This document shows positions 14,392 through 39,208 of a stretch of 64,000 nucleotides of DNA, piece by piece; position 1 is the first letter of the stretch; each line of letters starts with the position of its first letter. Source of the stretch: Spirosoma oryzicola. GTDB taxonomy: Bacteria > Bacteroidota > Bacteroidia > Cytophagales > Spirosomataceae. The notes beneath the pieces are model-generated. The model had not been told where the DNA came from. It did not search any database and worked only from the letters and a program-made list of their open reading frames with translations. Where the stretch lies: NCBI RefSeq assembly GCF_021233055.1, contig NZ_CP089543.1:117562-181561 (forward strand). Reading direction: 5' to 3'. Position numbers and translations under genes: made by a program.

Positions 14392-14937
14392 TGAGCTTCT
14401 TTATGGTAGTAGCTATTGAGGATGCACAAACAACCTTGAAGTGACTTTGCTATAGTATATACAAAGCTTCGTTGTTTCAGGTCAAATTGTTTTAGTCACG
14501 ACTTTACCTAACAATTAACCTGTTAAATACGGATTAGTTCACAGTTTCTTTAAATGCCCAATTGTTGAAGCATATATATGAAAACTCCATCGTCTCATCT
14601 AGGAGCGTAATGGTGAGACTGTTAGCCATAACCAAACAAAGAGGTGGCTGGCCTCTATCGCCGGACCGACGCTCGGCAAATTTCCGAGCGCTTCTCCGAC
14701 CCATCCGGGTACGCTCACCACGGCAGGCATCGCAACGGGCAAACGTGCCGGAGCGGGACCGTTACGAATTTCAATAAGAAAAATCAATATGCATACCTAT
14801 TGATTTTCAGTTATTTCCAGAACAAACCGAGCCAGATGCTAGCTGACGATGAAGCGCCACTTAAGTGCCGTATAAATGCCGTCCGATCAGTTAATAGGAA
14901 ACGCTTGATTTGACCTACATTGCCGAAAAAACTCGCT
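14392..14937. other. Intergenic stretch with one hairpin repeat
   Basis: About 550 bases between the divergent bestrophin-like gene and the XRE gene. It includes a GGAGCG-type hairpin at 14591-14619 and a short, more G+C-rich patch (about 14640-14770) that has open frames but no recognisable protein. The patch may be a decayed gene fragment. Confidence 0.4.
14591..14619 (+). repeat. GGAGCG-loop hairpin
   Basis: A six-base stem (GTCTCA with TGAGAC) encloses a 16-base loop containing AGGAGCGTAA. One of about ten related elements in the window. It lies between two divergent genes, unlike most other copies. Confidence 0.65.
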
Positions 14938-15468
14938 ATGTCAACTGGACAAAAAATTAAAGAAATTAGGCTTAAACAGGGAATGACACAACAAGAACTG
15001 GCCCTGGAAGCAAACATTAACCTGAGAACTGTTCAACGAATCGAGAATGAAGAGGTAATTCCTCGTAGCTATACACTCAAAATAATTGCAAAAGCATTAC
15101 ATATTGAGGAGTCAGAGCTAATCGATTCGAACCCATCGGGAAATGATCAGCAAAATCCCCGTCAGGGTAAGGCTATGTTAGTATGGCTGCATTTAAGTGG
15201 CTTATTTTTATTGCCGGCTTTTCTGACCTGGTTTTTCGAAAAAGAGCATGATCGGGACATTAAGTACCATGGAGCCGATGTGATCAATTTTCAGCTAAGC
15301 ATGTTGGCCCTTTTACTGCCCTGCTTATTTTTAGCCTGATTGCCTCAGCTAGTAGCTTTATTTACTGTGTTGGTCGTCTTAATCAATACAGTTAGGGTGA
15401 TCAGGGGTAAATCCTACTACTATCCCTTAACGATCAGAATAATAAAGACCTCATTTGAACCTGTATAA
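14938..15468 (+). pseudogene. XRE-family regulator with DUF4870-like membrane domain, interrupted by a stop
   Basis: The start MSTGQKIKEIR leads a helix-turn-helix domain (about residues 5 to 60, with MTQQELALEANINLRTVQRI). Then comes a linker and a membrane domain with DIKYHGADVINFQLS, the DUF4870 signature. A TGA at 15337-15339 ends the frame after LLPCLFLA. The same frame then goes on with a second membrane segment and the typical domain end SYYYPLTIRIIK, to a stop at 15466-15468. A single nonsense change therefore splits an otherwise normal gene. The short product could still bind DNA. An upstream ATG at 14920 is possible. Confidence 0.7.
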
Positions 15469-15798
15469 TAGGCCGATCCAACCCATTACTTTATGCCAAG
15501 TGATTGATATAGTTCGCTACCGTTGAAGAGGAAGTAGGCTAAAGAGGGGCAAATATGACTTATGCTGACAGAAACAGTTTCATCGTAGGGGCGACCCCGC
15601 CTGTTTTATAGAAACTCAGCCTAGTCTCATCGCCCTACGGTAGCAGCCAACGGCTATACTGGTGCCTACAGTAGCTTTGCTCCTCTAAACGGGGTTGCAT
15701 ACAGCTAATTTTTATACCTGTTTCATCTCAGACTGAGAGCGTTTTACGATACATAATAAACTCCTGGAACATCAACAATAGCGAATCGCAGCCCCCTT
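15469..15798. other. Convergent intergenic stretch
   Basis: About 330 bases between two gene ends. A degraded member of the GGAGCG hairpin family is at 15724-15750 (ATCTCA, GAGCGTTTTA). Nothing else was seen. Confidence 0.45.
15724..15750 (+). repeat. GGAGCG-loop hairpin, degraded copy
   Basis: The left arm ATCTCA and a loop core GAGAGCGTTTTA are recognisable but the right arm is lost. It lies between two convergent gene ends, as most copies do. Confidence 0.35.
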
Positions 15799-16413
15799 TT
15801 AGGCTACTAGTAACTGAATTTTACGGAGTGTGTGTTCAACCGCTTGAATAGGAAAATCACCCCTGCGACCGTAGGCCTCAAAGCGTAAATACTCACCCCA
15901 TACTAGGGCTCGGCCTTTCGCCGATTTATGCCAGTCGGCCTGACTAACTCCATACCCCTCTACCTCAGATGGTAGCACCAATGGCCAACCCGTGATCTCG
16001 CCTTGTGCATGAAACAGATAGGACCGCATGGTAGCGTAGGAATGGGCTATGAATAACATTTGCTTGGATACTTGAAAATTATACGCTTTCCGGGCTTCTA
16101 CTACATTTTCTAAGGTATTAGTCGATATGGTTTCTAAGATGAAGCGCAGATCGGTCCGATCTCTATACTTGATGGCGGCTAAGATACGTTCGGACTCGGC
16201 TACTGAATCAATTCGCAGATCGTTGTAGCGAGCCACACCACCGGTGATCAGAATGAGCTTGACCCCAGTCGTCTCAATTGCCTGGTTAATGAGTTGTGCT
16301 AACTGGTGCTGGAAGACGTTGGAACCAAAGACGAACAGGAAGTCCACGGGCTCTACTAGGTCTTGTCGATAAAAACAGAGACTGGTTAATTCATCAATCA
16401 GGGTCTGACTCAT
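15799..16413 (-). CDS. DUF218 (YdcF-like) protein
   Basis: A 204-residue protein if started at MSQTLIDEL; an upstream in-frame ATG at 16506 would add a proline-rich leader with no family match. The DUF218 fold shows as DFLFVFGSN at the first strand, KLILITGG, the acid-rich SERILAAI, the ETISTNTLENVVEAR block and a late HSYATMRSYLF. Related proteins bind nucleotide-like ligands or act in envelope polysaccharide metabolism, but the role of this cytoplasmic short form is not known. Confidence 0.75.
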   Translation of the reverse strand: MSQTLIDELTSLCFYRQDLVEPVDFLFVFGSNVFQHQLAQLINQAIETTGVKLILITGGVARYNDLRIDSVAESERILAAIKYRDRTDLRFILETISTNTLENVVEARKAYNFQVSKQMLFIAHSYATMRSYLFHAQGEITGWPLVLPSEVEGYGVSQADWHKSAKGRALVWGEYLRFEAYGRRGDFPIQAVEHTLRKIQLLVA

Positions 16414-16601
16414 CGAAGGTGGCTGAGGAAGTCTTGGAACCTCTCGATTAGGATTCACGGGTTGGCAGGGGCTAGTTTTCGGAGGTAGACCGCTCAATTT
16501 TGGCAAAAGACTAAGGTAGGTAAACTATTGGCCTACTTTTTCTAAACACTAGCATTTTATAAAAATGTAGTCGCCGATCAGCGATTCTAGACAAGAATTA
16601 T

Positions 16602-16629
16602 TGTCCCATAACGGAGCATTTTATGAGAT
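16602..16629 (+). repeat. GGAGCG-loop hairpin, variant copy
   Basis: GTCCCA, then GGAGCATTTTA and TGAGAT follow the family order, with a weakened stem. It lies downstream of the minus-strand NmrA gene, which ends at 16750. Confidence 0.45.
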
Positions 16630-16691
16630 GTCATTATTGAATACCTGGCAACGCCAGTTGGCCGTATGCAATCATTACTGCTCTAAAAATA

Positions 16692-16730
16692 ATTGTCACC
16701 TGATTTATATAAAATAAATCAGGTGACAAT
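16692..16730. terminator. 17-base perfect inverted repeat after the NmrA gene
   Basis: Arms at 16692-16708 and 16714-16730 are exact reverse complements with a five-base A-rich loop. It is 20 bases past the stop of the minus-strand gene at 16750, which suits a terminator. Confidence 0.7.
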
Positions 16731-16749
16731 AGTATCTGACTTAGAATCG

Positions 16750-17661
16750 CTAAACAAGGTTCAGCCGTGCCCATTCTTCCATCGTCAAACCAGGGCGACC
16801 TACGACCGTTAAAACGTCGTCTTTGACAATTGTCTGCGCTTCCATTTGTCCACTTTTTGCTAATTGCATCGTTATGTAAGCGCTTTCCATATACGCTTTT
16901 ACCAATACAGATGGAATTTGCTCAATTATCGCTTTCTGGTCGTCTGGATTGAGAACATTGCAGGTAATTTCTTTTCCAGATGCTTTTGACAGGATAGCCG
17001 CTACTTGAGGTCCGGTCAATACTTCAGTACTTAAATAGTAGTTGGCTCCGCCGCGTTTTTTGGGGCCTTCACGCAACACTGTAGCGGCTACAGCGGCAAT
17101 ATCTGACGCAAAGACCCATCCTTGTGGCGCATCACCCCAATAGACTGTGAACGAACCTATTTCGGTGATAGGTGGATCTACCGCTAATGAAGTATCTGCA
17201 ATCACGTTCGGATGAAGATGCGTCCAGGCCATTCCACTGGCTTCGATGTATGTTTCAACCATATCGTGCCACATGAAGTGAGGGATTAGGTCGTGACGGG
17301 AAGTAAATACGCCCAGATGAACGATATGACTCACGCCCGCTTTTGAGGCAGCATCGACTAGCAGTTTGCTTTGACGAAGCATGTCTACGGTATAACCAGT
17401 CAACAGAAATATTCTGTCAATACCATCCAGCGCATCGGCAAAAGTTTCCGGTTTGTCCAAGTCCAGAACTACTGAATCCCAACCTTGCTGCTGCCATTGA
17501 TTGGCTTTTTTCTGATCAGTTGTAGAAAGACGGACGGTAATCGAATCACTATTCCTGTCGAGTTCTTCAACAACCTGTGACCCTACTCGCCCCGTAGCAC
17601 CAATAATCAATACTTTGGCTCTTTCACTTCCGCTACCAGTTGAGGCAGGATTATTTTTCAT
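16750..17661 (-). CDS. NmrA-like NAD(P)-binding protein
   Basis: A 303-residue protein starting MKNNPASTG. The Rossmann motif GATGRVGSQVVEEL (about residues 20 to 33) and DRIFLLTGYTVDM, HIVHLGVF and WTHLHPN identify an atypical short-chain dehydrogenase of the NmrA type, which lacks the usual catalytic tyrosine motif. Members act as redox sensors or quinone/NADPH oxidoreductases. The start at 17661 is preferred to the ATG at 17730 because the protein match begins there. It is divergent from an HxlR regulator, a common pairing in which the regulator controls the oxidoreductase. Its paralog is at 31701. Confidence 0.85.
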   Translation of the reverse strand: MKNNPASTGSGSERAKVLIIGATGRVGSQVVEELDRNSDSITVRLSTTDQKKANQWQQQGWDSVVLDLDKPETFADALDGIDRIFLLTGYTVDMLRQSKLLVDAASKAGVSHIVHLGVFTSRHDLIPHFMWHDMVETYIEASGMAWTHLHPNVIADTSLAVDPPITEIGSFTVYWGDAPQGWVFASDIAAVAATVLREGPKKRGGANYYLSTEVLTGPQVAAILSKASGKEITCNVLNPDDQKAIIEQIPSVLVKAYMESAYITMQLAKSGQMEAQTIVKDDVLTVVGRPGLTMEEWARLNLV

Positions 17662-17721
17662 AACAGTAAAGGTTGACTTATAGGACAAAACTAGCGAGCC
17701 AATACTATACATTTGCAACCT

Positions 17722-17757
17722 GTTACACAAAGGATAGTAGTTACATAAAGGATACTA
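17722..17757. promoter_or_regulatory. Tandem direct repeat, probable HxlR operator
   Basis: Two copies of GTTACAYAAAGGATA stand head to tail in the gap between the divergent NmrA and HxlR genes. They differ at one position in the shared 15 bases. HxlR-type regulators commonly bind such sites next to their own gene. That they are the target here is inference. Confidence 0.55.
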
Positions 17758-17759
17758 GG

Positions 17760-18116
17760 GTGAGAGGGGCTTCAGAAAATCAGACGGAAACGCCGTACAA
17801 AAAGGCAAGATTATCCATACAGGATACCTTGGATGTAGTCGGAGGTAAATGGAAATTAGTCTTGATATTTGTTCTTATCGATGGGAAAAAGAGGTTCAAT
17901 CAACTCTCGAGAGAGGTTGGTATTAGTCCTCGAATTTTGTCGAAAGAGCTACAAGAACTAGAAATGAATGGACTGATCAGCCGCACGGTTTGCCATACCA
18001 AACCTGTTACGGTTGATTATGCGCTTACTGACTATAGTAAGACCCTGTCGGATGTAGTTACAACCATGTGTAAGTGGGGGGAAAGACACCGGGAGAAAAT
18101 TGTTGGTAGCGATTAA
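17760..18116 (+). CDS. HxlR-family transcriptional regulator
   Basis: A winged helix-turn-helix regulator of about 118 residues. The signature is clear: LDVVGGKWKLVLIFVL, KRFNQLSREVGISPRILSKE, LQELEMNGLISR and VDYALTDYSKTL. Such proteins often sense quinones, aldehydes or hypochlorite by cysteine chemistry; a Cys lies in the turn after GLISRTV and another near MCKWGE. The GTG at 17760 is taken as the start because it gives normal length and leaves the operator-like repeats upstream; an ATG at 17673 would put them inside the gene. Confidence 0.82.
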   Translation: MRGASENQTETPYKKARLSIQDTLDVVGGKWKLVLIFVLIDGKKRFNQLSREVGISPRILSKELQELEMNGLISRTVCHTKPVTVDYALTDYSKTLSDVVTTMCKWGERHREKIVGSD

Positions 18117-18253
18117 CGTTCGGCGTAGCGCTGTTTAATTTCATGAGCGCTTTACACTCGGGCTGATGTTGCGATACGTAGCAAAGCAGTAATAAATGTA
18201 GGTTGCAGGCACTTCTTTCCCATTTCCAGATCAGTCACATGAACGCTTCGTTG

Positions 18254-18279
18254 CCTCTATCAGGAGCGTTTAAATGAGA
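18254..18279 (+). repeat. GGAGCG-loop hairpin, variant copy
   Basis: The order CCTCTA, CAGGAGCGTTTA and TGAGA is kept, but the left arm no longer pairs fully. It lies between two convergent gene ends (18116 and 18337). Confidence 0.5.
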
Positions 18280-20561: not shown

Positions 20562-21719
20562 ATGAAACTAGGCACATTGCTGGCTGGCTGCTGTTTGCTA
20601 GCCAGTTGCGCCGAGCAGCCAACTTCCGAGCAGGCAGCGCCCCCGGCTTTACCCGTAGCCACCGTGCAAACCAGCACCCAAACTACCTATCAGGACTATC
20701 CTGTGGCCATTGAAGGGATCGTTAATGTCGAAATCAGGCCTCAGATCGCCGGAATACTCGACCGTATTCTGGTCGACGAAGGAGCCGCCGTGCGGCAGGG
20801 ACAGCCCCTGTTCAAGATCAACGATGCCCCCTACCGAGAGCGGTTGAATACGGCGCTGGCCGCCCAATATGCAGCAGAAGGCGCTCTGGTTAGTGCCCAA
20901 TTGGAGGTCGATAAATTTGCGCCCCTGGTGCAGAATAAAGTCGTCTCCGATATTCAGCTAAAAACGGCACAGGCGGCCCTGACGGTGGCAAAGGCCAACC
21001 TGCAGCGCGCCGAAGCCGAGGTCAGTAGCGCCCGCATCAACCTGGGTTATACACTCATTAAAGCCCCCGTTAGCGGCTACCTGGGGCGCTTGCTAATCAA
21101 GCAGGGCAGCCTGATAGGACCTACTGATGCCCAAGCCCTAACCCAGCTCTCTGACGTACACCAAATACACACCTACTTCTCGCTGGGAGAAGATGATTTT
21201 CTCTCCTTTCGCAAACAATACGCCGGGCAAACACTTCCCCAAAAGCTGGCCCACGTGCCCCCGGTGGCCCTGGTACTGGCTGACCAAAGTATGTTCCCGG
21301 TACGGGGGAAAGTAGATATGGTGGACGGGCAGTTTGATAAGACGACGGGGGCCGTGACGCTGCGCGCCACCTTCCCCAACGCCAATGGACTGCTGCGCTC
21401 GGGCAACACGGGCACCATTCGGCTGGCCCTGGCGCACCCCAACGTGCTGCTGGTACCCACTGCCGCCACCGTAGAGCTGCAGGACCGCGTATTTGTGTAC
21501 GCGGTGGGCGACAGCAACCGCGTCAGCCGCCAAGCCATCACCATTCAGGGCAAGAGCGGGGCCAACTACCTGGTGAGCGAGGGCGTAAAAGACGGCGACC
21601 GCATCGTGCTGCAAGGCATTGACCACTTGCAGGAAGGTCAACTCATCCAACCGACTCAGGGGCCTAAACCCAATGCCGCCGTGGCGGGCAGGGTAGCCGT
21701 CCAATCTGTTCAGAATTAA
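20562..21719 (+). CDS. RND efflux periplasmic adaptor (membrane fusion protein)
   Basis: About 385 residues from the ATG at 20562. It begins with a lipoprotein signal (MKLGTLLAGCCLLASC), so it is probably anchored to the inner membrane by a lipidated Cys16. The parts follow AcrA/MexE: a lipoyl-like half VEIRPQIAGILDRILV, a coiled-coil hairpin (about residues 95 to 155), the second lipoyl half ending YTLIKAPVSGYLGRLL and the barrel and proximal domains after that. It would bridge the pump and the outer-membrane channel encoded next. An ATG at 20475 is possible but would place the signal internally. G+C rises sharply in the second half of the gene. Confidence 0.9.
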   Translation: MKLGTLLAGCCLLASCAEQPTSEQAAPPALPVATVQTSTQTTYQDYPVAIEGIVNVEIRPQIAGILDRILVDEGAAVRQGQPLFKINDAPYRERLNTALAAQYAAEGALVSAQLEVDKFAPLVQNKVVSDIQLKTAQAALTVAKANLQRAEAEVSSARINLGYTLIKAPVSGYLGRLLIKQGSLIGPTDAQALTQLSDVHQIHTYFSLGEDDFLSFRKQYAGQTLPQKLAHVPPVALVLADQSMFPVRGKVDMVDGQFDKTTGAVTLRATFPNANGLLRSGNTGTIRLALAHPNVLLVPTAATVELQDRVFVYAVGDSNRVSRQAITIQGKSGANYLVSEGVKDGDRIVLQGIDHLQEGQLIQPTQGPKPNAAVAGRVAVQSVQN

Positions 21720-21731
21720 TCGTTTCCCCTC

Positions 21732-24700
21732 ATGTTTACCGTATTCATTGAACGGCCCGTGCTGGCCACCGTCATCTCCATCTTGCTGGTGATTGTGGGA
21801 GCGCTGGCCTTGTGGAAGCTGCCGATTCAGCAGTTCCCCGACATTGCGCCCCCCACGGTGCAGGTCACGGCGCTCTACCCCGGCGCCAACGCCGAAACGC
21901 TGCTGCGCTCGGTGGCGCCCTCGCTGGAAGAAGCCATTAACGGCGTCGAGAACATGATGTACCTGAAGTCGACGGCCAGCAACGATGGCACGCTTGTCAT
22001 TCAGGTGAGCTTCACCCTAGGTACCGATCCCGACCAGGCTGCCGTGAACGTGCAGAACCGGGTGGCCCAGGCCACCAGCCAGCTGCCCAGTGAGGTGGTG
22101 CAGCAGGGCGTAACGGTGGCCAAGCAGCAGAATAGCCTGGCGATGATTGTGGAGCTCTACTCGGATGACCCCAAGAAGTACGATCAGACCTTCCTGGACA
22201 ACTACGCGCAAATCAACCTGATACCAGAGCTCAAACGCATTCCGGGCGTGGGCTCAGCCGCCGTATTCGGGGGCAACAAGGCCTACGCCATGCGCGTCTG
22301 GCTGAACCCGGCCCAGCTGGCTAGCTACGGTCTCACGCCGGCCGAGGTGATGGCCGCCATTCAGGACAAAAACCTGGAGGCCGCCCCCGGCCGCCTGGGC
22401 GAGAGCAGCCAAGAATCATTTGAGTACGTCATCAAATACAAGGGCAAGCGCAACAAGCCCACGGACTACGAAAACATGATTATTCGGGCCAACGCCGACG
22501 GCTCAATGCTGCGCCTTAAGGACGTGGCGCGGGTAGAATTTGGCTCGACGACCTACAACACCTCCGTGCGGATTTCGGGCAAGCCCGGTATGAACGTGGC
22601 CATCTTCCAGTCGGCGGGCTCCAACGCCAACGAGGTGCAAATTGCCGCGGGCAAGGTCATGAAGAAGCTGGAAAAGGACCTGCCGAAAGGGGTCAGGCAG
22701 CTAACCCTGCTCAGTACCAAGGAAGCGCTGGACTTGTCCATCGAGCAGGTTGAGCACACGCTCCTGGAGGCCTTTGTCCTGGTGTTTATCGTCGTGTTCC
22801 TCTTCTTACAGGATTTTCGCTCGACGCTCATTCCCGCCATTGCCGTGCCGGTGGCCATCGTGGGCACGTTCTTCTTCATGCAGCTGGTGGGCTTTACCAT
22901 CAACCTGCTGACGCTCTTTGCCCTGGTGCTGGCCATCGGCATCGTGGTCGATGACGCCATTGTGGTGGTGGAGGCCGTGCACAGTAAGCTGGAGGAAGGC
23001 ACCCACTCGGTAAAAACAGCTACCAGGAAGGCCATGCAGGAGATTACCGGGGCCATTATTTCTATTACCCTGGTCATGGCAGCCGTGTTTCTGCCGGTGG
23101 GCTTGCTGGATGGCCCGACGGGGGTATTCTACCGCCAGTTTGCCTTCACAATGGCCATTGCCATCCTTATTTCGGCCGTCAACGCCTTAACGTTGAGCCC
23201 CGCGCTGGCAGCCCTGTTCCTCAGGCACACCCCGCACGAGCACGCGGCACCGAGCACGGTTAAAACCCGCTTTTTTGCGGGCTTCAACCGTAGCTTCGAG
23301 CGGCTGACTGCCCGCTACGTGGGCAGCATTAAGTTTCTGGTGCGCCACAAGTGGGTGGGCCTCAGCGGCCTGGTGCTGGTTATAGCCCTCACCGGCTGGC
23401 TGGCCAAGCGCACGCCTTCCGGCTTTATTCCGAATGAAGACCAGAGCTTCGTGGCCGTGGCCGTGACCCTGCCGGCTGGTGCATCGCTGCACCGCACCGA
23501 GCAGATTGCCCAGCAAATCGAAGCGCAGTTAATCCCTCTGCCGGCTATTGAGGTCATCAACATGATGGCCGGCTTCAACATCCTGGCGTCGGCCAACAGC
23601 CCCTCGTCCATCACGCTATTTGCGCGCCTGCGGCCCATTAAAGACCGCGGGGCGGAAAAGGACATTGAGGGCATCATGGCCATTATACGCGAGAAAATGA
23701 CCACCATTAAGGGGGCGGACATCTTTGTATTTACTACGCCTACCGTGCCGGGCTTCGGCAACGTAGAAGGCCTGGAAGTGGTGTTGCAGGACCGCACCGG
23801 CGGTGAGTTGCCCAAGCTGGGCCAGGTCGGGCAGGCCTTTATCGGCGAGCTGATGAAGCAGCCGGCTATTGGCGTGGCCTTTACCTCGTTCCGGGCTGAC
23901 TACCCGCAACTGGAAGCAGAAGTAGACGAAGTAAAAGCCGCCCAGCTGGGCGTAGGCGTGAAAGATGCGCTGCAAACCATGCAGGCTTACTTCGGCAGCG
24001 CCCAGGCCACCGACTTCAACCGCTTTGGCAAGTACTACCGGGTGGTGGTGCAGGCCGACAAGGCCAGTCGCGCCGACCTGACGGCCCTCAACGGCGCGTT
24101 CGTGAAAAACAACCGGGGCGAGATGGTGCCCCTGGCTACGCTGGTGCGTTTCAAGCGGGTGTTCGGCCCAGAAACGGCCTCGCGCTACAACCTCTTCAAC
24201 GCGCTGACCATCAACGCGACCCCAAAGCCGGGCTACAGCTCCGGCGATGCCATTAAGGCCGTGGAACGGGTGGCCGAGACGTACTTACCCGCGGGCTACA
24301 CCTACGAGTTTTCGGGCCTGACCCACGAGGAAATCTCCTCGGGCAACCAGTCAACCGTCGTCTTTTTGATGTGTATTGTGTTTGTGTACTTCCTGCTGGC
24401 GGCCCAGTACGAGAGCTACATTCTGCCCTTTGCGGTGCTACTCTCGCTGCCGACGGGCATTTTGGGGGTGTTCGCGGCCATTGGTCTTGCGGGCATTACC
24501 AACAACATCTACGTGCAGGTGGCCCTGATTATGCTCATTGGCCTGCTGGCCAAGAACGCCATCCTGATTGTGGAATTTGCCTTGCAGCGTCGCCACGCGG
24601 GCGAACCGTTGGTGCAGGCCGCGCTCAATGCCTCGGCCTCGCGCCTGCGGCCCATCCTGATGACCTCGCTGGCCTTCGTGGCGGGGATGCTGCCCATGAT

Positions 24701-24905
24701 GAACGTACAAGGCCCATCGGCGCAGGGCAACCATTCGATCAGCATCGGCGCGGCCGGGGGCATGGTCACGGGCGTTTTGCTTGGCCTGTTTCTCATCCCG
24801 GTGCTATTCGTGATTTTTCAACGCCTGCATGAGCGAATTAGCGGTACTTCTCACCCGGTCACGGCTCACCCGACCCCGGTACCCGAACCCGAACCGATTA
24901 ACTAA
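21732..24905 (+). CDS. RND multidrug efflux pump, HAE1 family
   Basis: A 1057-residue inner-membrane drug/proton antiporter of the AcrB/MexF type. The N-terminus MFTVFIERPVLATVISILLV is typical. The proton-relay pair Asp407-Asp408 sits in GIVVDDAIVVVE, at the same numbers as in E. coli AcrB. Two large periplasmic loops follow membrane helices 1 and 7, and GLLAKNAILIVEFA marks helix 11. It starts 12 bases after the adaptor stop and ends 3 bases before the channel gene, so the three are one operon. Base composition is strongly G+C-rich, unlike the flanking genes, which suggests transfer. Confidence 0.95.
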   Translation: MFTVFIERPVLATVISILLVIVGALALWKLPIQQFPDIAPPTVQVTALYPGANAETLLRSVAPSLEEAINGVENMMYLKSTASNDGTLVIQVSFTLGTDPDQAAVNVQNRVAQATSQLPSEVVQQGVTVAKQQNSLAMIVELYSDDPKKYDQTFLDNYAQINLIPELKRIPGVGSAAVFGGNKAYAMRVWLNPAQLASYGLTPAEVMAAIQDKNLEAAPGRLGESSQESFEYVIKYKGKRNKPTDYENMIIRANADGSMLRLKDVARVEFGSTTYNTSVRISGKPGMNVAIFQSAGSNANEVQIAAGKVMKKLEKDLPKGVRQLTLLSTKEALDLSIEQVEHTLLEAFVLVFIVVFLFLQDFRSTLIPAIAVPVAIVGTFFFMQLVGFTINLLTLFALVLAIGIVVDDAIVVVEAVHSKLEEGTHSVKTATRKAMQEITGAIISITLVMAAVFLPVGLLDGPTGVFYRQFAFTMAIAILISAVNALTLSPALAALFLRHTPHEHAAPSTVKTRFFAGFNRSFERLTARYVGSIKFLVRHKWVGLSGLVLVIALTGWLAKRTPSGFIPNEDQSFVAVAVTLPAGASLHRTEQIAQQIEAQLIPLPAIEVINMMAGFNILASANSPSSITLFARLRPIKDRGAEKDIEGIMAIIREKMTTIKGADIFVFTTPTVPGFGNVEGLEVVLQDRTGGELPKLGQVGQAFIGELMKQPAIGVAFTSFRADYPQLEAEVDEVKAAQLGVGVKDALQTMQAYFGSAQATDFNRFGKYYRVVVQADKASRADLTALNGAFVKNNRGEMVPLATLVRFKRVFGPETASRYNLFNALTINATPKPGYSSGDAIKAVERVAETYLPAGYTYEFSGLTHEEISSGNQSTVVFLMCIVFVYFLLAAQYESYILPFAVLLSLPTGILGVFAAIGLAGITNNIYVQVALIMLIGLLAKNAILIVEFALQRRHAGEPLVQAALNASASRLRPILMTSLAFVAGMLPMMNVQGPSAQGNHSISIGAAGGMVTGVLLGLFLIPVLFVIFQRLHERISGTSHPVTAHPTPVPEPEPIN

Positions 24906-24908
24906 TCC

Positions 24909-26345: not shown

Positions 26346-26473
26346 CTAAACGGCCTCGCGTCAAGCAGACCGGAATATCCTTACACGAATGGGTTGTATG
26401 GCGTAGCCGACCTAAGCAGGGCCATCGGTAGTTGCCCGAAAAGTCAAATGCGCCTACCTTAAAACCAACGACA

Positions 26474-26770: not shown

Positions 26771-26862
26771 TATGAAACATACGTACGTAATGGTTTATGA
26801 AAACGTGTCGTTGCACCCCATCGCGCAAACAACGTCTACAACCAGATAAATGAGTAACTACC

Positions 26863-28185: not shown

Positions 28186-28222
28186 AACGTTTCACAATCA
28201 ATTAACCAGTAAAGTAACGACT

Positions 28223-28969
28223 ATGAAGATTGGAATCATTGGCACCGGCCCTGTTGGTGGCTCTCTCACCAAAAACCTGGCTGCTCTCGGCCACCAGGTG
28301 AAAGTGACCAACACCCGCCAGCCGGCCGAGTTGGCTCAAAAAGCAAAGGAGCTGGGCGCTAGCCCTGCCACCCTGCAAGACGTGGTACGAGACGTGGACC
28401 TGGTTTTTATCGCCGTGCCCTTCAAGGTACTTGACGAGTTTCCCAAGGACCTATTCCGGTCGTTGCCCCCCGAGGTAATTGTGGTAGACACCGGCAACTA
28501 CTACCCCTTCCGGGACGAGAAGATCGACGCGCTGGAGCAGGGCACGCCCGAGAGTGTACTGGCGGCCGAGCAATTGGGTCGATCCATCATCAAAGCCTTC
28601 AACAACCTGCTGGCCGAAACAATTGCCAGTGGTGGTACCGCCCCCGGCACGCCCGGCCGCATCGCCCTTTCCATTGCGGGCGAGGACGAGCAGGCCAAGC
28701 AAGTCCTGGCCGACCTCTGCAACGATCTTGGCTTTGACGTAGTAGACGGGGGCACCCTGGCCGACTCCTGGCGGCAGCAGCCCGGCACCCCGGCCTACTG
28801 CACCGAGCTCACGGCCCCGGAGCTAACCCAGGCCCTGGCCAACGCCGTGCCCGGCAAGGCTCCGCAGATACGCGACGAAATTATCTCGGCGCTGATGCAA
28901 CGCGAAGCCTGGCCTACCCGCCAGGAAGTGGTAGCTGGCAACCGCGCCAAGCAGCAGGGTAAAATGTAG
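28223..28969 (+). CDS. F420-type NADP-binding oxidoreductase, copy 1
   Basis: A 248-residue Rossmann protein starting MKIGIIGTGPVGGSLTKNLA. The family is named for NADPH:F420 reductase, but most bacterial members have an unknown acceptor; F420 is not typical of Bacteroidota. Landmarks: VTNTRQP, DLVFIAVPF, VVDTGNYYP and DSWRQQPGTPAYCTEL. The start at 28223 is preferred to one at 28163, which would overlap the monooxygenase. A paralog at 30810 shares a 78-base stretch of identical DNA with it. Confidence 0.85.
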   Translation: MKIGIIGTGPVGGSLTKNLAALGHQVKVTNTRQPAELAQKAKELGASPATLQDVVRDVDLVFIAVPFKVLDEFPKDLFRSLPPEVIVVDTGNYYPFRDEKIDALEQGTPESVLAAEQLGRSIIKAFNNLLAETIASGGTAPGTPGRIALSIAGEDEQAKQVLADLCNDLGFDVVDGGTLADSWRQQPGTPAYCTELTAPELTQALANAVPGKAPQIRDEIISALMQREAWPTRQEVVAGNRAKQQGKM

Positions 28970-29070
28970 GTGGTCCCAGTGCCCCGCGTAGTTACTTTGT
29001 GTTCACGCTGGGCAGTGCTACTGCCTTTACAATCAGACTATTATTCTGACATGTCAACCTATTAAAACGT

Positions 29071-30180
29071 ATGAGCGAGCAACCGCTGCTGACCCCTTAT
29101 CACTCCGATAAGCTCATCCTGAAAAACCGCGTGGTGCTGGCGCCCATGACCCGCGCCCGCGCCGACAACGAAGGCAACGTGCCTACCGACCTGATGGTGA
29201 CCTACTACACACAGCGGGCCTCGGCGGGCCTGCTCATCTCGGAGGGCGCATTTGTGAGCCCCCAGGCCGTGGGCTACATCAACGTGCCGGGTATCTACTC
29301 GCAAGCGCAGGTGGCGGGCTGGAAAAAAATAACCGACGCGGTACACGCGCAGGGCAATCTGTTTTTTGCGCAGCTCTGGCACGTGGGTCGGCTGTCGCAC
29401 CCCGACATGCTGAACGGCAACCTGCCGCTGGCCCCGTCGGCCATTAACGCCCACGACAACGTGTATACGCCTAGCGGCTTTCTACCCACGGTGACGCCGG
29501 CCGCCATGACGGTCGCGCAAATCAAGCAAACGGTGGCCGACTTCGCGCAGGCCGCGCAAAACGCGCTGGCCGCCGGCTTCGATGGGGTGGAGTTGCATGC
29601 CGCCAACGCCTACCTGTTTCACCAGTTTTTTGCGCAATGCGCCAACACCCGCGCCGACGAGTACGGCGGTTCGCGGGAAAACCGGGCCCGGTTTCTCTTC
29701 GAGGTGCTGGAGGCAATGCAGACAGCGGACGTGGACCTGAGCAAGGTAGGCGTGCGACTCAACCCCTCGCTCGACGGCTTGGGCGGTATCACGGTTGACG
29801 CTGAAACCCTGCCCACGTTTGATTACATCGTGCAGCGCCTTAATGACTACGGCTTGGCTTACCTGCACCTGCTGGAGCCGTTCACCGACGTGAGCCAGAA
29901 TGCGCTTGCCGAATCCCACATTGCCCGGCGCTACCGCCCCCTCTACCAGGGCACGCTCATCATTAACAACGGCTTTGACCAGGAGAAAGGCAATACGATC
30001 CTGGCCGATGGGGAGGCTGACCTGGTGGCGTTTGGCAAACCCTTTATCGCTAACCCCGATCTGGTCGCGCGCTTTGCACAACACACGCCCCTGGCCAAAC
30101 CAGACAAGGAGACCTTGTACACGCCCGGCCCTAAAGGTTACACGGACTACCCGGCCTTAGCTGAACCGGTACCTCATTAA
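29071..30180 (+). CDS. Old Yellow Enzyme family alkene reductase
   Basis: A 369-residue FMN-dependent TIM-barrel enzyme that reduces activated C=C bonds or nitro groups with NAD(P)H. Landmarks: KNRVVLAPMTRARA at the N-terminus, QLWHVGRLSHP near residue 105, and ELHAANAYLFHQFF, whose H-x-x-N pair binds the substrate carbonyl. RADEYGGSRENRARF and FGKPFIANPDLV are also typical. The length is normal. It sits between the two F420-type genes. A remnant of a second OYE gene lies after copy 2. Confidence 0.92.
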   Translation: MSEQPLLTPYHSDKLILKNRVVLAPMTRARADNEGNVPTDLMVTYYTQRASAGLLISEGAFVSPQAVGYINVPGIYSQAQVAGWKKITDAVHAQGNLFFAQLWHVGRLSHPDMLNGNLPLAPSAINAHDNVYTPSGFLPTVTPAAMTVAQIKQTVADFAQAAQNALAAGFDGVELHAANAYLFHQFFAQCANTRADEYGGSRENRARFLFEVLEAMQTADVDLSKVGVRLNPSLDGLGGITVDAETLPTFDYIVQRLNDYGLAYLHLLEPFTDVSQNALAESHIARRYRPLYQGTLIINNGFDQEKGNTILADGEADLVAFGKPFIANPDLVARFAQHTPLAKPDKETLYTPGPKGYTDYPALAEPVPH

Positions 30181-30224
30181 GGCTGATTGTCAACTTTTAC
30201 GCAAAACATCTTATTTCCAATAGA

Positions 30225-30671
30225 ATGGCAACGAACATCATGCACTCGGCGCAGGCCAAATCGATCGGCGGGCGCGACGGCCGTATTGAATCAACTGACA
30301 ACGTACTCAACCTGGAGCTGACCATGCCCCGCGCCCTGGGTGGCCGCGCCCGAGAAGGCGCGACGAATCCCGAGCAACTGTTTGCGGCTGGCTATGCGGC
30401 TTGTTTCGGCAATGCCGTCATTCATACGGCCCGACAGGCGAAAGTAAGCGTGGGCAACATTTCCGTCGACGCTCGGGTAGAACTCTTCATGAACGAGGAT
30501 AATCTGCCAACGCTTGGCGTGGCTCTGCACGTGAACCTGCCCGACGTAGTCCAAGCCCAGGCCCAGGAAATCGTGGCCCAGGCTCACCAGACGTGCCCGT
30601 ACTCGCGCGCCACGCGCGGCAACATCGACGTCAATCTCATCGTCACCACCGATGCCGTAGTAGCCGCCTAG
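30225..30671 (+). CDS. Organic hydroperoxide resistance protein (Ohr/OsmC)
   Basis: A 148-residue peroxidase of the Ohr type, which reduces organic hydroperoxides with two cysteines. Both are present: Cys60 in GYAACFGNAV and Cys124 in HQTCPYSRATRGN. The subgroup is Ohr rather than OsmC, judged by NPEQLFAAGYAACF. It is 44 bases after the OYE gene, so the two are likely read together. Confidence 0.9.
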   Translation: MATNIMHSAQAKSIGGRDGRIESTDNVLNLELTMPRALGGRAREGATNPEQLFAAGYAACFGNAVIHTARQAKVSVGNISVDARVELFMNEDNLPTLGVALHVNLPDVVQAQAQEIVAQAHQTCPYSRATRGNIDVNLIVTTDAVVAA

Positions 30672-30809
30672 GCCGCCACGTTTGCAGAGCGAGCCTTGCG
30701 CCCTGCTCGAGAGCGACCCTAGACCGGGCGTAAGGTTCTTAGTTCATCTGGGCCCGCCTGTTTAGCGAGCTGATGTTACCCATTTTTTTCACTCTTGCTC
30801 ATTCTCTTT

Positions 30810-31553
30810 ATGAATATTGGCATTATCGGTACCGGTTCAATCGGGGCTACCCTCGCGCAAAAGCTGATGGCTGCCGGCCACCAGGTGAAAGTGACCAACA
30901 CCCGCCAGCCGGCCGAGTTGGCTCAAAAAGCAAAGGAGCTGGGCGCTAGCCCCGCCACCCTGCAAGACGTAGTACAGGACGTGGACCTGGTGTTCGTCAG
31001 CATCCCCTTGCATGTCATTCCAAAGCTGCCCGCTGGCCTGCTGCGCGACCTGCCCACGGAGGTAGTGGTGGCGGATACCAGCAACTACTACCCGCAACGG
31101 GACGGGAAAATCGACGCCTTAGAAAACGGGCAAGTCGAAAGCGTGTGGGTGGCCGAGCAGCTGGGTCGCCCCATCATCAAAGCTTACAACAATATTCTGT
31201 CCCAGACGCTGGTTGCGGGCAGCGATGCCCCCGGCACGTCCGGCCGCATCGCCATTTCGGTAGCTGGCGACGATGCGCAGGCCAAACAGCGCGTGGCCGA
31301 GCTCATCAGCGCTACAGGCTTTGACGTGGTAGACGCGGGCTCATTGGCCGATTCGTGGCGGCAGCAGCCCGGTACGCCGGCCTACTGCACCGAGCTCACG
31401 GCCCCGGAGCTGACCCAGGCGCTGGCCGCCGCCGTGCCGGGCAAGGGCCCACAGGTGCGCGATCAGATTATGGCCCAGCTCACGCAGCGCAACATGCCCC
31501 CCACGCGCGATGACCTCCTGGTCTTGAACCGCTCGCTGGGCATGGGCGTTTAG
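30810..31553 (+). CDS. F420-type NADP-binding oxidoreductase, copy 2
   Basis: A 247-residue paralog of the gene at 28223, starting MNIGIIGTGSIGATLAQKL. The dinucleotide-binding site and the DSWRQQPGTPAYCTEL block are kept. At 30875-30952 the DNA is identical to 28288-28365, although other parts of the genes differ a good deal. This points to gene conversion or selective retention after duplication. Confidence 0.85.
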   Translation: MNIGIIGTGSIGATLAQKLMAAGHQVKVTNTRQPAELAQKAKELGASPATLQDVVQDVDLVFVSIPLHVIPKLPAGLLRDLPTEVVVADTSNYYPQRDGKIDALENGQVESVWVAEQLGRPIIKAYNNILSQTLVAGSDAPGTSGRIAISVAGDDAQAKQRVAELISATGFDVVDAGSLADSWRQQPGTPAYCTELTAPELTQALAAAVPGKGPQVRDQIMAQLTQRNMPPTRDDLLVLNRSLGMGV

Positions 31554-32609: not shown

Positions 32610-32613
32610 TATT

Positions 32614-32670: not shown

Positions 32671-32769
32671 GTTATTCTTTTGGGGGCGCCCACTATTAAT
32701 CGTAGAGTAACTGTTAGTATATCGTCTCTTATAACGCCCCATTTGAGAAGCAGATAAATAAACAGCTGT

Positions 32770-32792
32770 CGTCTCAGGTAGGAGCCTTTTTC
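32770..32792 (+). repeat. GGAGCG-loop hairpin, left half only
   Basis: CGTCTCA and TAGGAGCCTTTTT follow the family pattern but the right arm is missing. It lies between two convergent gene ends, just before the Lrp-type gene's stop. Confidence 0.5.
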
Positions 32793-32801
32793 TAAGAAAG
32801 T

Positions 32802-33408: not shown

Positions 33409-34320
33409 ATGGAATCAAAGACGATAAAAGGGGTTAGCTTAGCCATAGGGGCCGCCATACTTTGGGGGGTGTCGGGCACCGTGGGACAATTTCTCTTTGA
33501 GCACCGGCATATCAATGTGGAGTGGCTAATCACCACGCGAATGTTGCTATCGGGCGCTCTGCTGTTGAGCTTTTCTGGGTTGGTTGAAAAGGCCAATCTG
33601 CTGTCGATATGGAAGCACAAAAAAGACGCCCTGCAGTTGGGTGTTTTTAGTCTGGCCGGCATGCTGGCCGTTCAGTATACGTACTTTGCCGCCATCAACT
33701 ATTCCAATGCGGCCACGGCAACGGTGCTCCAATATTCAGGGCCAATTCTCATTGCGGTTTACCTGGCGATCAAAACCAGACGTATGCCTACAAGATCCGA
33801 AGTAGGGGCAATATTGCTGGCGATCTTTGGCACCGTGCTGCTGGTCACCCGGGGTGATATGATGAGCCTGTCAATTTCGGGCTTAGCCTTGCTGTTTGGG
33901 CTTGGGTCGGCGGTTACGCTGGCCATTTACACCTTACAACCGGCCCGTCTTTTAGCTAGGTATAGCTCCTCGCTGGTTATTGGCTGGGGCATGTTTTTTG
34001 GCGGTTTGGTTTTCTCGCTAGTCCGGGCACCGTGGCAGGTCAGCGGAACCTGGGACACACAAACCTATCTGGGTATGGGCTTTATTGTGGTCTTTGGGAC
34101 GTTGGTAGCTTTTTACGCCTATATGTCAGCCGTGAAGCTAATTGGTGGTCAGAGAGCTAGTTTATTGGCCTCGGCCGAGCCCCTCTCCGCGGCTCTGATC
34201 GCGGTGATGTGGCTTGGGCTCTCCTTCACGGGTCCGGAATGGCTTGGCAGTTTTTGTATTATTTCGACAATCTTTCTGTTGAGCAAGCAGTCGGGTTCGC
34301 CAGACTCCCATCCTGGCTAA
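33409..34320 (+). CDS. EamA/DMT-family exporter
   Basis: A 303-residue membrane protein with about ten hydrophobic segments in two repeats of five, the EamA layout. GVSLAIGAAILWGVSGTVGQ opens the first repeat and GMGFIVVFGTLVAFYAYMSA lies in the second; SAEPLSAALIAVMWLG near the end is a typical EamA hallmark. Relatives export amino acids or other small metabolites. It is divergent from the Lrp-type regulator, supporting an amino-acid role. Confidence 0.88.
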   Translation: MESKTIKGVSLAIGAAILWGVSGTVGQFLFEHRHINVEWLITTRMLLSGALLLSFSGLVEKANLLSIWKHKKDALQLGVFSLAGMLAVQYTYFAAINYSNAATATVLQYSGPILIAVYLAIKTRRMPTRSEVGAILLAIFGTVLLVTRGDMMSLSISGLALLFGLGSAVTLAIYTLQPARLLARYSSSLVIGWGMFFGGLVFSLVRAPWQVSGTWDTQTYLGMGFIVVFGTLVAFYAYMSAVKLIGGQRASLLASAEPLSAALIAVMWLGLSFTGPEWLGSFCIISTIFLLSKQSGSPDSHPG

Positions 34321-34360: not shown

Positions 34361-34389
34361 CGTCTCAGGAGGGAGCGTTTATGTGAGAT
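34361..34389 (+). repeat. GGAGCG-loop hairpin
   Basis: The stem GTCTCA/TGAGAT pairs over six bases (one G-T) around a loop with GGGAGCGTTTA. It lies 40 bases after the EamA stop and before the end of a convergent pseudogene. Confidence 0.65.
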
Positions 34390-34938: not shown

Positions 34939-35850
34939 ATGTCCCTGAACTATATCCGGCGGGGTGCCGGTAAACCACTGTTATTACTCCATGGCCTAGG
35001 TAGCTCTCTGAAGGCCTGGGATCTGGTTATCGATGAGTTGGCTACTCAGCGGGATGTGATTGCCGTGGACTTACCCGGTTTCGGTCAATCACCGGCCCTA
35101 CTAGGCGAAGTATCTATTTCTACGCTGGCTGATGTGGTGACCGATTTTTTAAGCCAGCACCAGCTCCTGGGCATTGATGCTGTCGGCAACTCTATGGGGG
35201 GCCGATTGGTGCTCGAATTAGCCCGGCGGGGCCAGGTTGTCGGTTCGGTCGTATCCTTGGATCCGGGTGGTTTCTGGCAAGGCTGGCAGGTGGCCTATTT
35301 CTATCATTCGGTTCGGCTATCAGCTCAATTATCCAGCCTCATTCAACCGATTTTACCACCCCTGGTAAGCAATCCGGTGAGCCGAACACTGTTGTTCGCG
35401 CAATTTTCGGCTCATCCCTGGACGATCCCGGCTCCAGTGGCCCTGAATGAATTTCGGGAGTTTTTGCCCACCCCCAGCTTTACTAAACTTCTGGATAGTC
35501 TGGCCCATGGCCCCCCGCAGCAGGGAGCGCCCCTTGGCTCTATCCCCAACTTGGTCATTGGCTGGGGTCGCCAGGACCGGATTTGTCCGCCCAGTCAGGC
35601 GAAACGGGCCCTGGCGTTGTTTCCTGACGCGCAGCTTCATTGGTTTTCGAATTGTGGACATGTTCCGCAACTAGATGTGCCGGCTGAAACCGTGGCGCTG
35701 ATTCTGGCCGTTACGGAGGGTCGCTACGAGCCTCAAACCCCAGTTTCTACGGAAACAAAGGAGTCTGAAGTTACCGAAAACGTCTTTATTGGTGTAGGTG
35801 TTGCGGTGCTGTTGGTAGGACTATTTCTCACGTTTGGCTTGAAACGATAA
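34939..35850 (+). CDS. Alpha/beta hydrolase with a C-terminal membrane anchor
   Basis: A 303-residue hydrolase. Landmarks: LLLLHGLGSSLKAWD (oxyanion hole), nucleophile Ser85 in GNSMGG, Asp213 in GRQDRICP and His241 in NCGHVPQLD. After the catalytic domain comes an acidic linker (about 262 to 280) and a single membrane segment (about 281 to 300) followed by K-R. This suggests a tail-anchored cytoplasmic enzyme, an unusual add-on for this family. The substrate is unknown. Confidence 0.88.
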   Translation: MSLNYIRRGAGKPLLLLHGLGSSLKAWDLVIDELATQRDVIAVDLPGFGQSPALLGEVSISTLADVVTDFLSQHQLLGIDAVGNSMGGRLVLELARRGQVVGSVVSLDPGGFWQGWQVAYFYHSVRLSAQLSSLIQPILPPLVSNPVSRTLLFAQFSAHPWTIPAPVALNEFREFLPTPSFTKLLDSLAHGPPQQGAPLGSIPNLVIGWGRQDRICPPSQAKRALALFPDAQLHWFSNCGHVPQLDVPAETVALILAVTEGRYEPQTPVSTETKESEVTENVFIGVGVAVLLVGLFLTFGLKR

Positions 35851-36020: not shown

Positions 36021-36066
36021 TTAGGCGATCTCGTCCACGAAAAGGCTCCTATTCGAGATCGTCTAA
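36021..36066 (-). repeat. GGAGC-loop hairpin with a long stem, minus orientation
   Basis: A 13-base stem (36021-36033 with 36054-36066, one G-T pair) encloses a 20-base loop. Read on the minus strand the loop contains TAGGAGCCTTTT, as in the copy at 32770. It lies between two convergent gene ends. Confidence 0.6.
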
Positions 36067-36091
36067 AAGCCAGAAAAACTAATTTGAATAC

Positions 36092-37285: not shown

Positions 37286-37351
37286 TGATTGGGTTTCACG
37301 TCTCTATTTCACGAAACGCCCAATTTATGATGCTGACCCATTAAAGCTTAT

Positions 37352-37390
37352 TCGTCTCACGGGGGAGCGTTTAAGGAGACGATTTTTTTT
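37352..37390 (+). terminator. GGAGCG-loop hairpin followed by eight Ts
   Basis: A perfect seven-base stem (37352-37358 with 37376-37382) encloses a loop with GGGGGAGCGTTTA, and eight Ts follow at 37383-37390. This has the exact form of an intrinsic terminator for the gene ending at 37285. It is the clearest clue to the role of the repeat family. Confidence 0.75.
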
Positions 37391-37577
37391 AATAACTGTA
37401 AACTCTAGTTAGTCGCATACGTACTACGATGGTACTATGCCTCCTTTACACCACTGACCTAATGATTTGCCAGCACGAAACGATTGAGTTGATACCAAAT
37501 CGACAGTCGTTAAGAAGTTTACTTATAACTCAATTATTTCCCATTCGGGAATTGGGTAGAAAATTTGCTTAACGGAC

Positions 37578-38363
37578 CTAAATAGAAGCGCTTTTTGCCG
37601 TATCAAATCGCTTTGCCTGTATTCGATCATACTCGTCCACATAATCCGGGTGCTCCGTCTTCAATAGCCGATCCCAAAAACGAAAATACAAACCATAGTT
37701 ACCCTTGAATTTACTGTGATGCAGATTGTGGTGTACCGACGTGTTGAGAATGTCAAAAAGGAATGAATGCCGAAACCAGCGTGGAGCTATCTCATAGCCT
37801 AGGTGACCATACACGTTGATCACAAATCCAACGACCGCAAACAACACGATTGTTAGAGCATGCATGGGTATCAGGCAAGCAATGACCACCAGGACCGCTC
37901 CTTCCGCCAAGGATTCAAGAAAGCTAAATGAATAGGAAGTCCAGGGCGACGGATTAGTTGATCGGTGATGCAACAGATGGGTCAACCGAAAGAGCTGTTT
38001 GTGGTGTAACAACCGGTGCAGCCAATAAAAATATGTATCGTGAATAACTAAACTGAGCACCAGACTCGTCACCACCCACCAGCCTGGATAGTCGGCTAAA
38101 TGATCGTAGACCAGCGTGTAGCTCCTGAAGGGGGTACGCAGGACTAAATACGAAACCAGGGCGAAGACGGCTGTGGATTGCAGGGAATGCAGGATTTCAC
38201 GAATAAAGTCCTTATTGATGGCATTTTTAGGCTGAATTTTCGACTTGGCAAAGTAGGGGGTAAAGACTAAATAGAAAATAAGAAATGGGATGCCGGCTAA
38301 AACGAAATATCGCAGGGTTAACAGGGTAAATGTACCCCCTATGATTTTCAATGAATGCTCCAT
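37578..38363 (-). CDS. Sterol desaturase / fatty-acid hydroxylase family protein
   Basis: A 261-residue membrane di-iron enzyme. The histidine clusters are visible: HDTYFYWLHRLLHH, HLLHHRS and, near residue 210, HHNLHHSKFKGNYG. Four hydrophobic segments surround them. Such enzymes hydroxylate or desaturate lipids such as sterols, carotenoids or fatty acids. No lipid genes are nearby, so the substrate is open. The Crp-type regulator gene lies 69 bases upstream on the same strand. Confidence 0.88.
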   Translation of the reverse strand: MEHSLKIIGGTFTLLTLRYFVLAGIPFLIFYLVFTPYFAKSKIQPKNAINKDFIREILHSLQSTAVFALVSYLVLRTPFRSYTLVYDHLADYPGWWVVTSLVLSLVIHDTYFYWLHRLLHHKQLFRLTHLLHHRSTNPSPWTSYSFSFLESLAEGAVLVVIACLIPMHALTIVLFAVVGFVINVYGHLGYEIAPRWFRHSFLFDILNTSVHHNLHHSKFKGNYGLYFRFWDRLLKTEHPDYVDEYDRIQAKRFDTAKSASI

Positions 38364-38432
38364 GACAGACGGGTTCTAATGAGGCTATAAATCTACTGCC
38401 TCTGGCCTACCCGGCTCGTTAACTTAAGATAA

Positions 38433-39056
38433 TTACCGCTCATGCCGGCTAGCCATTCGTCTTCTTAGCCGACTTAATGACACGGGCGTGATGCCCAGAA
38501 AGGTGGCAATATATTTATTGGGGACCCGATTGATAATATTGGGTTTTTGCTCAACCAGTTGGCGATAGCGCTCTTCGGGTGAAAGCAATACGAACGATTC
38601 GATCCGATCCATTGATTGAGCGAGCATAGTCATCAAAAAGTACTTGCGTGTGCTTTCTAACTTAGGCGTGCTTTCCAGCAGGGCTTGAAGGGCATCATAT
38701 TCAATCTCCAGTAAGTCGGTATCCTCCATGGCCTGATAGGTAAACCGGGATGGTTTATCGAGGAAAATGGCATCTTGGGAAGCCACAAGCTGATCTTCCC
38801 AGTTTAACTCGGTTGTGATTTCATCCCCGTTCTGCTTGACCGTATACACGCGGATCAATCCCTTTAAGATAAGCGCGATTTTGCGATGGGTACTGTTTTG
38901 CTGCATATACACCTCTGAAGCCGCCAGGTGCCGGGGTTTGGCTAGCTGTAACAGAGTGGCTAACTCCTCATACGTCAGGTTTTTAAAGCGCTGCAAGTAA
39001 AACAGTATTCGTTCGGAGTGGGGATCAAAAGCTAGGGGTGGTGTTGGGTTTTCCAT
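38433..39056 (-). CDS. Crp/Fnr-family transcriptional regulator
   Basis: A 207-residue regulator from MENPTPPLAF. The N-terminal cyclic-nucleotide-binding fold includes a ligand-pocket-like region GDEITTELNWEDQLV but lacks the Arg-Ser signature of cAMP binders. The C-terminal helix-turn-helix is NKYIATFLGITPVSLSRLRRR. Many Bacteroidota have such proteins next to metabolic genes. It precedes the desaturase gene on the same strand and may regulate it. The upstream ATG at 39131 is less likely. Confidence 0.85.
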   Translation of the reverse strand: MENPTPPLAFDPHSERILFYLQRFKNLTYEELATLLQLAKPRHLAASEVYMQQNSTHRKIALILKGLIRVYTVKQNGDEITTELNWEDQLVASQDAIFLDKPSRFTYQAMEDTDLLEIEYDALQALLESTPKLESTRKYFLMTMLAQSMDRIESFVLLSPEERYRQLVEQKPNIINRVPNKYIATFLGITPVSLSRLRRRMASRHER

Positions 39057-39181
39057 GTACACGAATGCCGATCGATTGAAGAGATGAAGCAAATATAAGT
39101 TATCAGCACCGGGCCCGTTCGCTCTATCCACGGGTATAGTCTAGGGCACTGACTTAGATCTGCAACAACCGCCCGGTACTC

Positions 39182-39208
39182 ATCTCACTTGGGAGCGATT
39201 AATGAGAC
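39182..39208 (+). repeat. GGAGCG-loop hairpin
   Basis: A five-base stem TCTCA/TGAGA encloses a loop with GGGAGCGATTA, followed by a T-rich tail. It lies between two minus-strand genes, about 160 bases past the end of the upstream one. Confidence 0.6.

Follow-up and report, generated by a model that had tools for sequence, protein, structure and literature searches.

The classic system by which single genes are stored and shuffled is the integron. Its attC sites consist of two opposed box pairs and the attI1 site carries direct repeats, as described in the part of the source used here (PMC3053210). In the sections of the IntegronFinder 2.0 article that we drew on, integrons are reported from few Bacteroidetes and Spirosoma is not mentioned (PMC9024848). 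The dif modules of Acinetobacter plasmids comprise one or a few genes, in both directions, with sites of about 28 bp (PMC6449649); a title cited there describes the flanking sites as inversely oriented. Here we describe a family of intergenic repeats in a stretch of 64,000 nucleotides from Spirosoma oryzicola (the window), which is the end of contig C6 (181,561 bp) in the ten-contig genome; coordinates marked C6, C7 or C10 are contig-based. A preliminary description of this stretch had presented the repeats as hairpins with a fixed loop and a variable stem. We consider it about 75% probable that they are directional recombination sites between mobile gene modules, and that the array they form resembles that of an integron and ends in a special terminal site. 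Searches of an open-licence PMC library listed no description of this system.

The intergenic repeat family is real. Using a threshold of 15 bits and a weight matrix trained on the family's own sites, 48 sites were found in the 405 kb of C6, C7 and C10 (15, 23 and 9 on the plus strand and 0, 1 and 0 on the minus strand, respectively), a large excess over chance: no site reached 15 bits in the same contigs shuffled by single bases, and none in C8 and C9, two other plasmids of S. oryzicola (235 kb). In sampled chromosome of four relatives, there were 12 such sites in 800 kb. Within the window, plus-strand sites of 18 to 41 bits were found at 14593, 16604, 18254, 32772, 34363, 37355 and 39183. 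These are seven of the ten stretches listed in the preliminary description, whose letters all agree with the sequence quoted there. Of the remaining three, the one at 36021 (minus strand) forms a junction that is divergent and inverted (matched at 36058 with 10.6 bits), and those at 15724 (-7.0 bits) and 36466 (-13.5 bits) did not match the matrix and drop out of the family. The loop said to be conserved has few exact copies in the window, GGAGCGTTTA occurring four times and GGAGCCTTTT twice.

Nearly all array sites have the core GTCTCA-nnnn-GGAG/CGTTTTnTGAGAC, where the stroke marks the inferred crossover, a position near the centre of the inverted TCTCA and TGAGA arms. Many sites additionally have outer boxes, GTCTC-nnn-AAACGCCC, separated from the core by a spacer of variable length: at least six of the eight letters of AAACGCCC were present 25 to 45 nt upstream of the core in 82 of 141 sites, and GTCTC were the commonest letters three nt further out. 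Except for one extra A, the outer boxes mirror GGGAGCGTTTnnnGAGAC.

It was found that the left and right flanks of the sites combine independently and that the switch point lies within GGAG. The sites C6:109920 and C7:73967 have only the right flank in common, and C7:73967 and C7:102098 only the left. Similarly, only the left flank is common to C7:34509 and C7:66235 and to C7:86599 and C10:27593, and only the right flank to C7:71359 and C10:28739 and to C7:38463 and C10:31394. Whole modules recur between sites with up to 97% identity (C7:71358-73946 compared with C10:28738-31326). When 16 filtered duplicates were analysed, 20 of their 32 ends had a site no more than 95 bp away in one copy or both, and for 11 ends this was true of both copies; in a control with rotated sites (2000 trials), the means were 2.24 and 0.07 and the maxima 15 and 2, respectively. 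The filter required at least 80% identity over at least 500 bp on the same strand, excluded pairs less than 6 kb apart on one replicon and dropped the sequence L149; both the filter and the 95-bp limit were set after a first, unfiltered count. Two module copies begin at GAGC without the left half, as after insertion at another target. In the window, the similarity of the alpha/beta-hydrolase module to a plasmid of KNUC1025 stops at 36046, which is the GGAG/C of the minus-strand copy at 36021, and a similar start of the hydrolase module was seen by eye in S. rhododendri. Judged from sequence, such site-bounded modules exchanging partners at one point are a signature of site-specific recombination. 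We also noticed that the homology of two pairs of duplicates (L193:15601 and L195:15785; C7:73946 and C10:31326) ends at the outer AAACGCCC box and not at the core, as if the outer box were a second crossover point in some duplicates.

In the stretches studied, 141 of 146 sites are oriented as their cluster. In the fetched chromosomal clusters of relatives, given here by genome code, the main orientation was found in 19/20 sites of G005, 37/40 of G010, 15/15 of G015, 17/17 of G017 and 4/4 of G016, in stretches that were picked because a scan of the genus had shown one-strand clusters there. Site orientation is independent of the direction of the genes. The claim that no copy lies within a gene is nearly true, as only 5 of 141 main-strand sites fall in predicted open reading frames (ORFs) at a coding fraction of 0.77, and the supposed preference for convergent ends or positions downstream of a gene was not found (39 convergent, 34 divergent and 61 tandem contexts, n = 134); these counts rest on simple ORF calling. 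Replicon-wide polarity, due to replication or to the transferred strand, was also considered and is unlikely, because clusters of opposite orientation share one replicon on plasmid 1 of KNUC1025 and in G005, where both orientations are present across the whole chromosome. A comparison of site orientation with GC skew involved a weak skew and few independent clusters.

If the repeats were intrinsic terminators or a structured RNA family, compensating changes in the stem and a bias to gene 3' ends could be looked for, as the preliminary description had suggested. Neither was seen: the TCTCA and TGAGA arms paired in 73.3% of cells compared with 73.0% after shuffling, this stem showed no covariation, and the genome scan gave no 3'-end bias. 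Site folding was weak and alike on both strands (mean z of about -0.5 to -1.0, compared with -0.1 for the flanks), and Rfam at gathering scores gave no match in the window. Terminators or RNA structures would also leave site orientation and module ends unexplained. What speaks for them is that a T run within 15 nt downstream was enriched (24/138 sites compared with 14/552 control stretches), so that some copies may additionally end transcription. The terminator and structured-RNA readings thus fail on 3'-end bias, covariation and Rfam; a hairpin or terminator is probably the wrong reading of the repeats, and we regard it as very improbable. The lack of stem covariation is as expected if the two arms belong to different modules. 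Of the contacts and origins first proposed, an RNA contact is not borne out; a mobile repeat and a protein contact are retained in a stronger form, as sites that would bound mobile gene modules.

REP/BIME elements (repetitive extragenic palindromic sequences and bacterial interspersed mosaic elements) are short intergenic palindromic repeats with a GGAG motif, as in the Spirosoma family. The GGAG tetranucleotide is reminiscent of REP sequences, and strand-specific insertion would yield a single orientation, so that single-strand transposition by a Y1 transposase (IS200/IS605 or REP-associated), with the modules as passengers and a GGAG-type target, has to be weighed. Against this, the PF01797 family was without a match in G005, a genome with at least 60 sites, and in S. 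oryzicola matched once, at a marginal 24.8 bits; in addition, the sites fold weakly on either strand. Unlike REP/BIME with their REP-associated tyrosine transposases, the Spirosoma repeats have a uniform orientation and modules end at them. We consider transposition of this kind improbable, if less so than terminators.

Three plasmids of S. oryzicola are filled with sites of this family, which also forms clusters in other Spirosoma. When the S. oryzicola genome was searched with a pattern, small contigs carried most of the matches with at most two mismatches, and all matches on C6, C7 and C10 lay on one strand. A fourth contig, C5, has three two-mismatch matches to the core pattern, at 83075, 95422 and 131861. 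The scan of related genomes that the preliminary description had proposed gave many matches: using a sequence-only model of 45 sites (8 of 53 first-pass sites were omitted and the window copy at 36021 was never included), 30 of 36 Spirosoma genomes matched at E <= 1e-3, with a maximum of at least 67 matches per genome; in a sample of 160 genomes from the family, 24 matched at E <= 1e-4, 17 of Spirosoma and seven from three other genera. Per-genome counts are lower bounds, since at most 150 candidates per genome were scored in the genus scan and at most 41 in the family scan. A strict 27-nt pattern searched in one genome each of 84,980 species, among which S. oryzicola's own genome is possibly absent, found six stretches, five in Spirosoma and one in Larkinella rosea.

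In G005 and S. profusum, GTCTCA boxes repeated downstream of a recombinase gene were the first to be noticed, and the attI-like element that they mark, a site longer than those of the arrays, was searched for with a 19-nt pattern and then with a profile of seven copies. All 13 elements with array sites within 8 kb lie downstream of the sites and in the same orientation. Their distance from the nearest upstream array site is 6.4 kb on C6, 7.4 kb on C7, 0.1 and 5.6 kb in G005, 0.7 kb in S. profusum, 3.0 kb in S. rhododendri, 1.0 kb and, inside the array, about 4 kb in G015, 2.4 kb in G017, 3.9 kb in Larkinella, and 3.9, 3.5 and 4.3 kb in KNUC1025. Six of the 13 are outside the profile (that inside the G015 array, those of G017 and Larkinella, and the three of KNUC1025), as is the second of the two G005 copies, almost identical to the other. 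Another copy, at 8.113 Mb of G015 (L182), is about 31 kb away from the nearest listed array site; S. linguale has one copy on pSLIN01 and two on pSLIN03, with no array site within the 30 kb fetched, and L201 gave a weak partial match to the profile. The profile gave no element on C10 or in the G005 and G010 arrays that had been fetched, and a later scan gave none in the 11 kb downstream of these two arrays. From its position, the element is the predicted terminal site that closes the clusters.

In each of the five loci of one clade of Cre-like tyrosine recombinases (two of G005 and one each of S. profusum, S. rhododendri and KNUC1025), the gene lies past the terminal element at a distance of 0.25-1.6 kb, with its 3' end facing the element. 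The proteins have 327-354 amino acids, the presumed catalytic residues are present by eye, and the nearest solved structures are those of Cre. This is a likeness to the Cre/lox-type plasmid recombinases, which have one lox site, in contrast to the many diverse sites bounding cargo modules in Spirosoma. The recombinase is a good candidate for the enzyme. It is no constant partner of the element, because other enzymes, or none, adjoin other element copies. Cousins of the clade with about 41 to 54% identity are found on plasmids of Hymenobacter, Runella and Fibrella (among 40 listed of 3140 matching records), and two Hymenobacter loci of the cousin gene are without such sites or element. Five more distant relatives have no terminal element within 5 kb. 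Clustering of predicted ORFs revealed no recombinase common to the fetched arrays. Serine resolvases were rejected as the mover, since the array-bearing G017 has only one weak and one broken match. Serine recombinase genes at C7:113285-114127 and at 85190-85852 of the KNUC1025 plasmid 1 record lie 1.4 to 3.8 kb beyond the element and face it.

The serious and main rival to the candidate enzyme is XerC/XerD. The host recombinases would move the modules, the terminal element would be a plasmid dimer-resolution site with accessory repeats, and the neighbouring recombinase would be a bystander. Among tyrosine recombinases, judged by size and score, just two were found in every one of the 15 Spirosoma genomes examined, and both are of the Xer type (they were typed in S. 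oryzicola only); the core is close in length to a dif site, and differing recombinases near the element in different places fit a common host enzyme. Like the Xer-dependent dif modules of Acinetobacter, the Spirosoma modules occur on plasmids and consist of one or a few genes between short sites, with genes in both directions. On the other hand, the site-free genomes G012, G019 and G031 also have both Xer-type genes, and the dif modules are described as inversely flanked (a title cited in PMC6449649), whereas the Spirosoma sites are direct (141/146). The Spirosoma arrays also differ in their core, in being chromosomal as well and in having a separate terminal element. We consider it unlikely that Xer moves the modules, and clearly less so than the other rivals discussed here.

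A true integron array left without its integrase, the sites being attC sites of IntI, would have the same general look: an array of modules, two opposed box pairs with a variable spacer, terminal direct repeats and toxin-antitoxin cargo. However, RYYYAAC and GTTRRRY occur together in 0 of 141 sites, the inferred crossover is within GAG and not GTT, and no S. oryzicola protein exceeds the cut-off for IntI (TIGR02249, searched in this genome only: best score 134.6 bits, by XerD, cut-off 265). We regard this explanation as the least probable of all. Recombination sites of an integron-like cassette system are a different matter, and the likely reading. Like integrons, the Spirosoma arrays have modules in one orientation and sites with two opposed box pairs and a variable spacer. 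They also have a predicted terminal site with direct repeats; in some loci a tyrosine recombinase gene adjoins it, a placement reminiscent of intI and attI, although the five loci of the Cre-like clade had been fetched because of that gene. Unlike integrons, their sites fold weakly and similarly on both strands, their genes run in both directions and, if the left unit corresponds to attC, the terminal element lies at the array end opposite to attI.

Several observations weigh against recombination sites served by an enzyme of this clade. Compensation between outer and inner boxes was sought with a negative result, the pairing in 59 pairs being no better than permutation, within the module or within the site. 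Twelve of the 32 filtered duplicate ends are away from any detected site, and in the unfiltered set of 74 stretches, a large part of which were tandem repeats within genes, the signal was weaker, with 16 of 148 ends at sites compared with a rotation mean of 4.8 and maximum of 30. In KNUC1025, no site was detected adjoining the hydrolase gene. All five recombinase loci had been fetched because of that gene, and those of G005 are 95% identical, so that near-duplicates are counted among the five. In addition, the clade is not known from S. oryzicola, G017 and G035, all site-rich; no recombinase gene was recognised adjoining the terminal element of the window, and the element is near serine recombinases on C7 and plasmid 1 of KNUC1025 and near a 417-amino-acid tyrosine recombinase in Larkinella.

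If the repeats act as recombination sites, one module would be the stretch from one crossover to the next. Since the core is asymmetric, modules would join head to tail and a cluster would keep a single orientation. Modules would leave and re-enter as circles through exchange within GAG and may sometimes enter other GAG-containing targets. Less surely, the catalyst would be the Cre-like tyrosine recombinase, acting beside the terminal element in some loci and in trans elsewhere. A new platform with its own Cre-like integrase is plausible. The fuller proposal is tentative, and we would give it somewhat less than even odds: that an integron evolved a second time, independently, and in Spirosoma and Larkinella combines a Cre-like recombinase, a terminal site like attI with GTCTCA repeats, and dozens of directional sites like attC with their crossover in GAG.

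The features of the window are collected in Table 1. A perfect 16-bp inverted repeat (TTGTCACCTGATTTAT) at 16693-16729 directly downstream of an array site is possibly an ordinary terminator. Between two array sites lies an island for heavy-metal efflux of the resistance-nodulation-division type (20607-31471), with partial similarity (80 to 84% identity) to plasmids of Hymenobacter swuensis and H. volaticus; it contains diverged direct copies at 28222-28903 and 30809-31490 (76 to 80% identity). Among the cargo of other arrays, gene pairs that we take to be of the RES/Xre toxin-antitoxin-like type recur in five (C7, G005, G010, G015 and G017), and in KNUC1025 an annotated RES/Xre pair (L238:1258-2213) fills one module, bounded by sites at 893 and 2373. 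Large chromosomal integrons, too, commonly carry toxin-antitoxin genes.

Table 1. Array sites, predicted terminal element and module genes in the window (bits, weight-matrix score; stroke, inferred crossover).
Feature	Position	Strand	Remarks
Array site	14544..14618	+	Outer boxes 14544-14559 (AAATGCCC at 14552), core 14592-14618; 31.1 bits
Array site, core	16603..16629	+	Weaker copy; 18.0 bits
Array site, core	18253..18279	+	22.5 bits
Array site	32724..32797	+	Outer boxes from 32724, core from 32771; 30.3 bits
Array site, core	34362..34388	+	26.8 bits
Divergent inverted junction	36021..36066	-	Module homology with KNUC1025 ends at 36046 (GGAG/C); 10.6 bits
Array site	37306..37380	+	Outer boxes from 37306, core from 37354; 40.9 bits
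Array site, core	39182..39208	+	Final array site of the C6 plasmid; 26.6 bits
Putative terminal, attI-like element	45530..45665	+	Extra GTCTCA-type repeats; 6.4 kb downstream of last C6 array site
Helix-turn-helix protein	14920..15339	+	Module gene
NmrA-like oxidoreductase	16750..17730	-	Module gene
HxlR regulator	17673-18116	+	Adjoins NmrA-like oxidoreductase
EamA-type transporter	33409..34320	+	Module gene
Alpha/beta hydrolase	34939..35850	+	Module ending at 36046
Fatty acid hydroxylase family	37578-38363	-	Module gene
Cyclic nucleotide (cNMP)-binding regulator	38433-39131	-	Same module as fatty acid hydroxylase

Small gene groups could move and be reshuffled as cassettes on Spirosoma plasmids and chromosomes, in the manner of integrons and with different sites. 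The same logic with unrelated sites, and perhaps a Cre-type enzyme, would mean, if true, that cassette arrays evolved more than once, and a possible new directional recombination tool would be at hand. An independently evolved integron would be a gene-capture platform through which adaptive modules and those with toxin-antitoxin genes spread among plasmids and chromosomes. This branch of the Bacteroidota would then have its own gene-capture system, which would explain the mosaic plasmids of Spirosoma.

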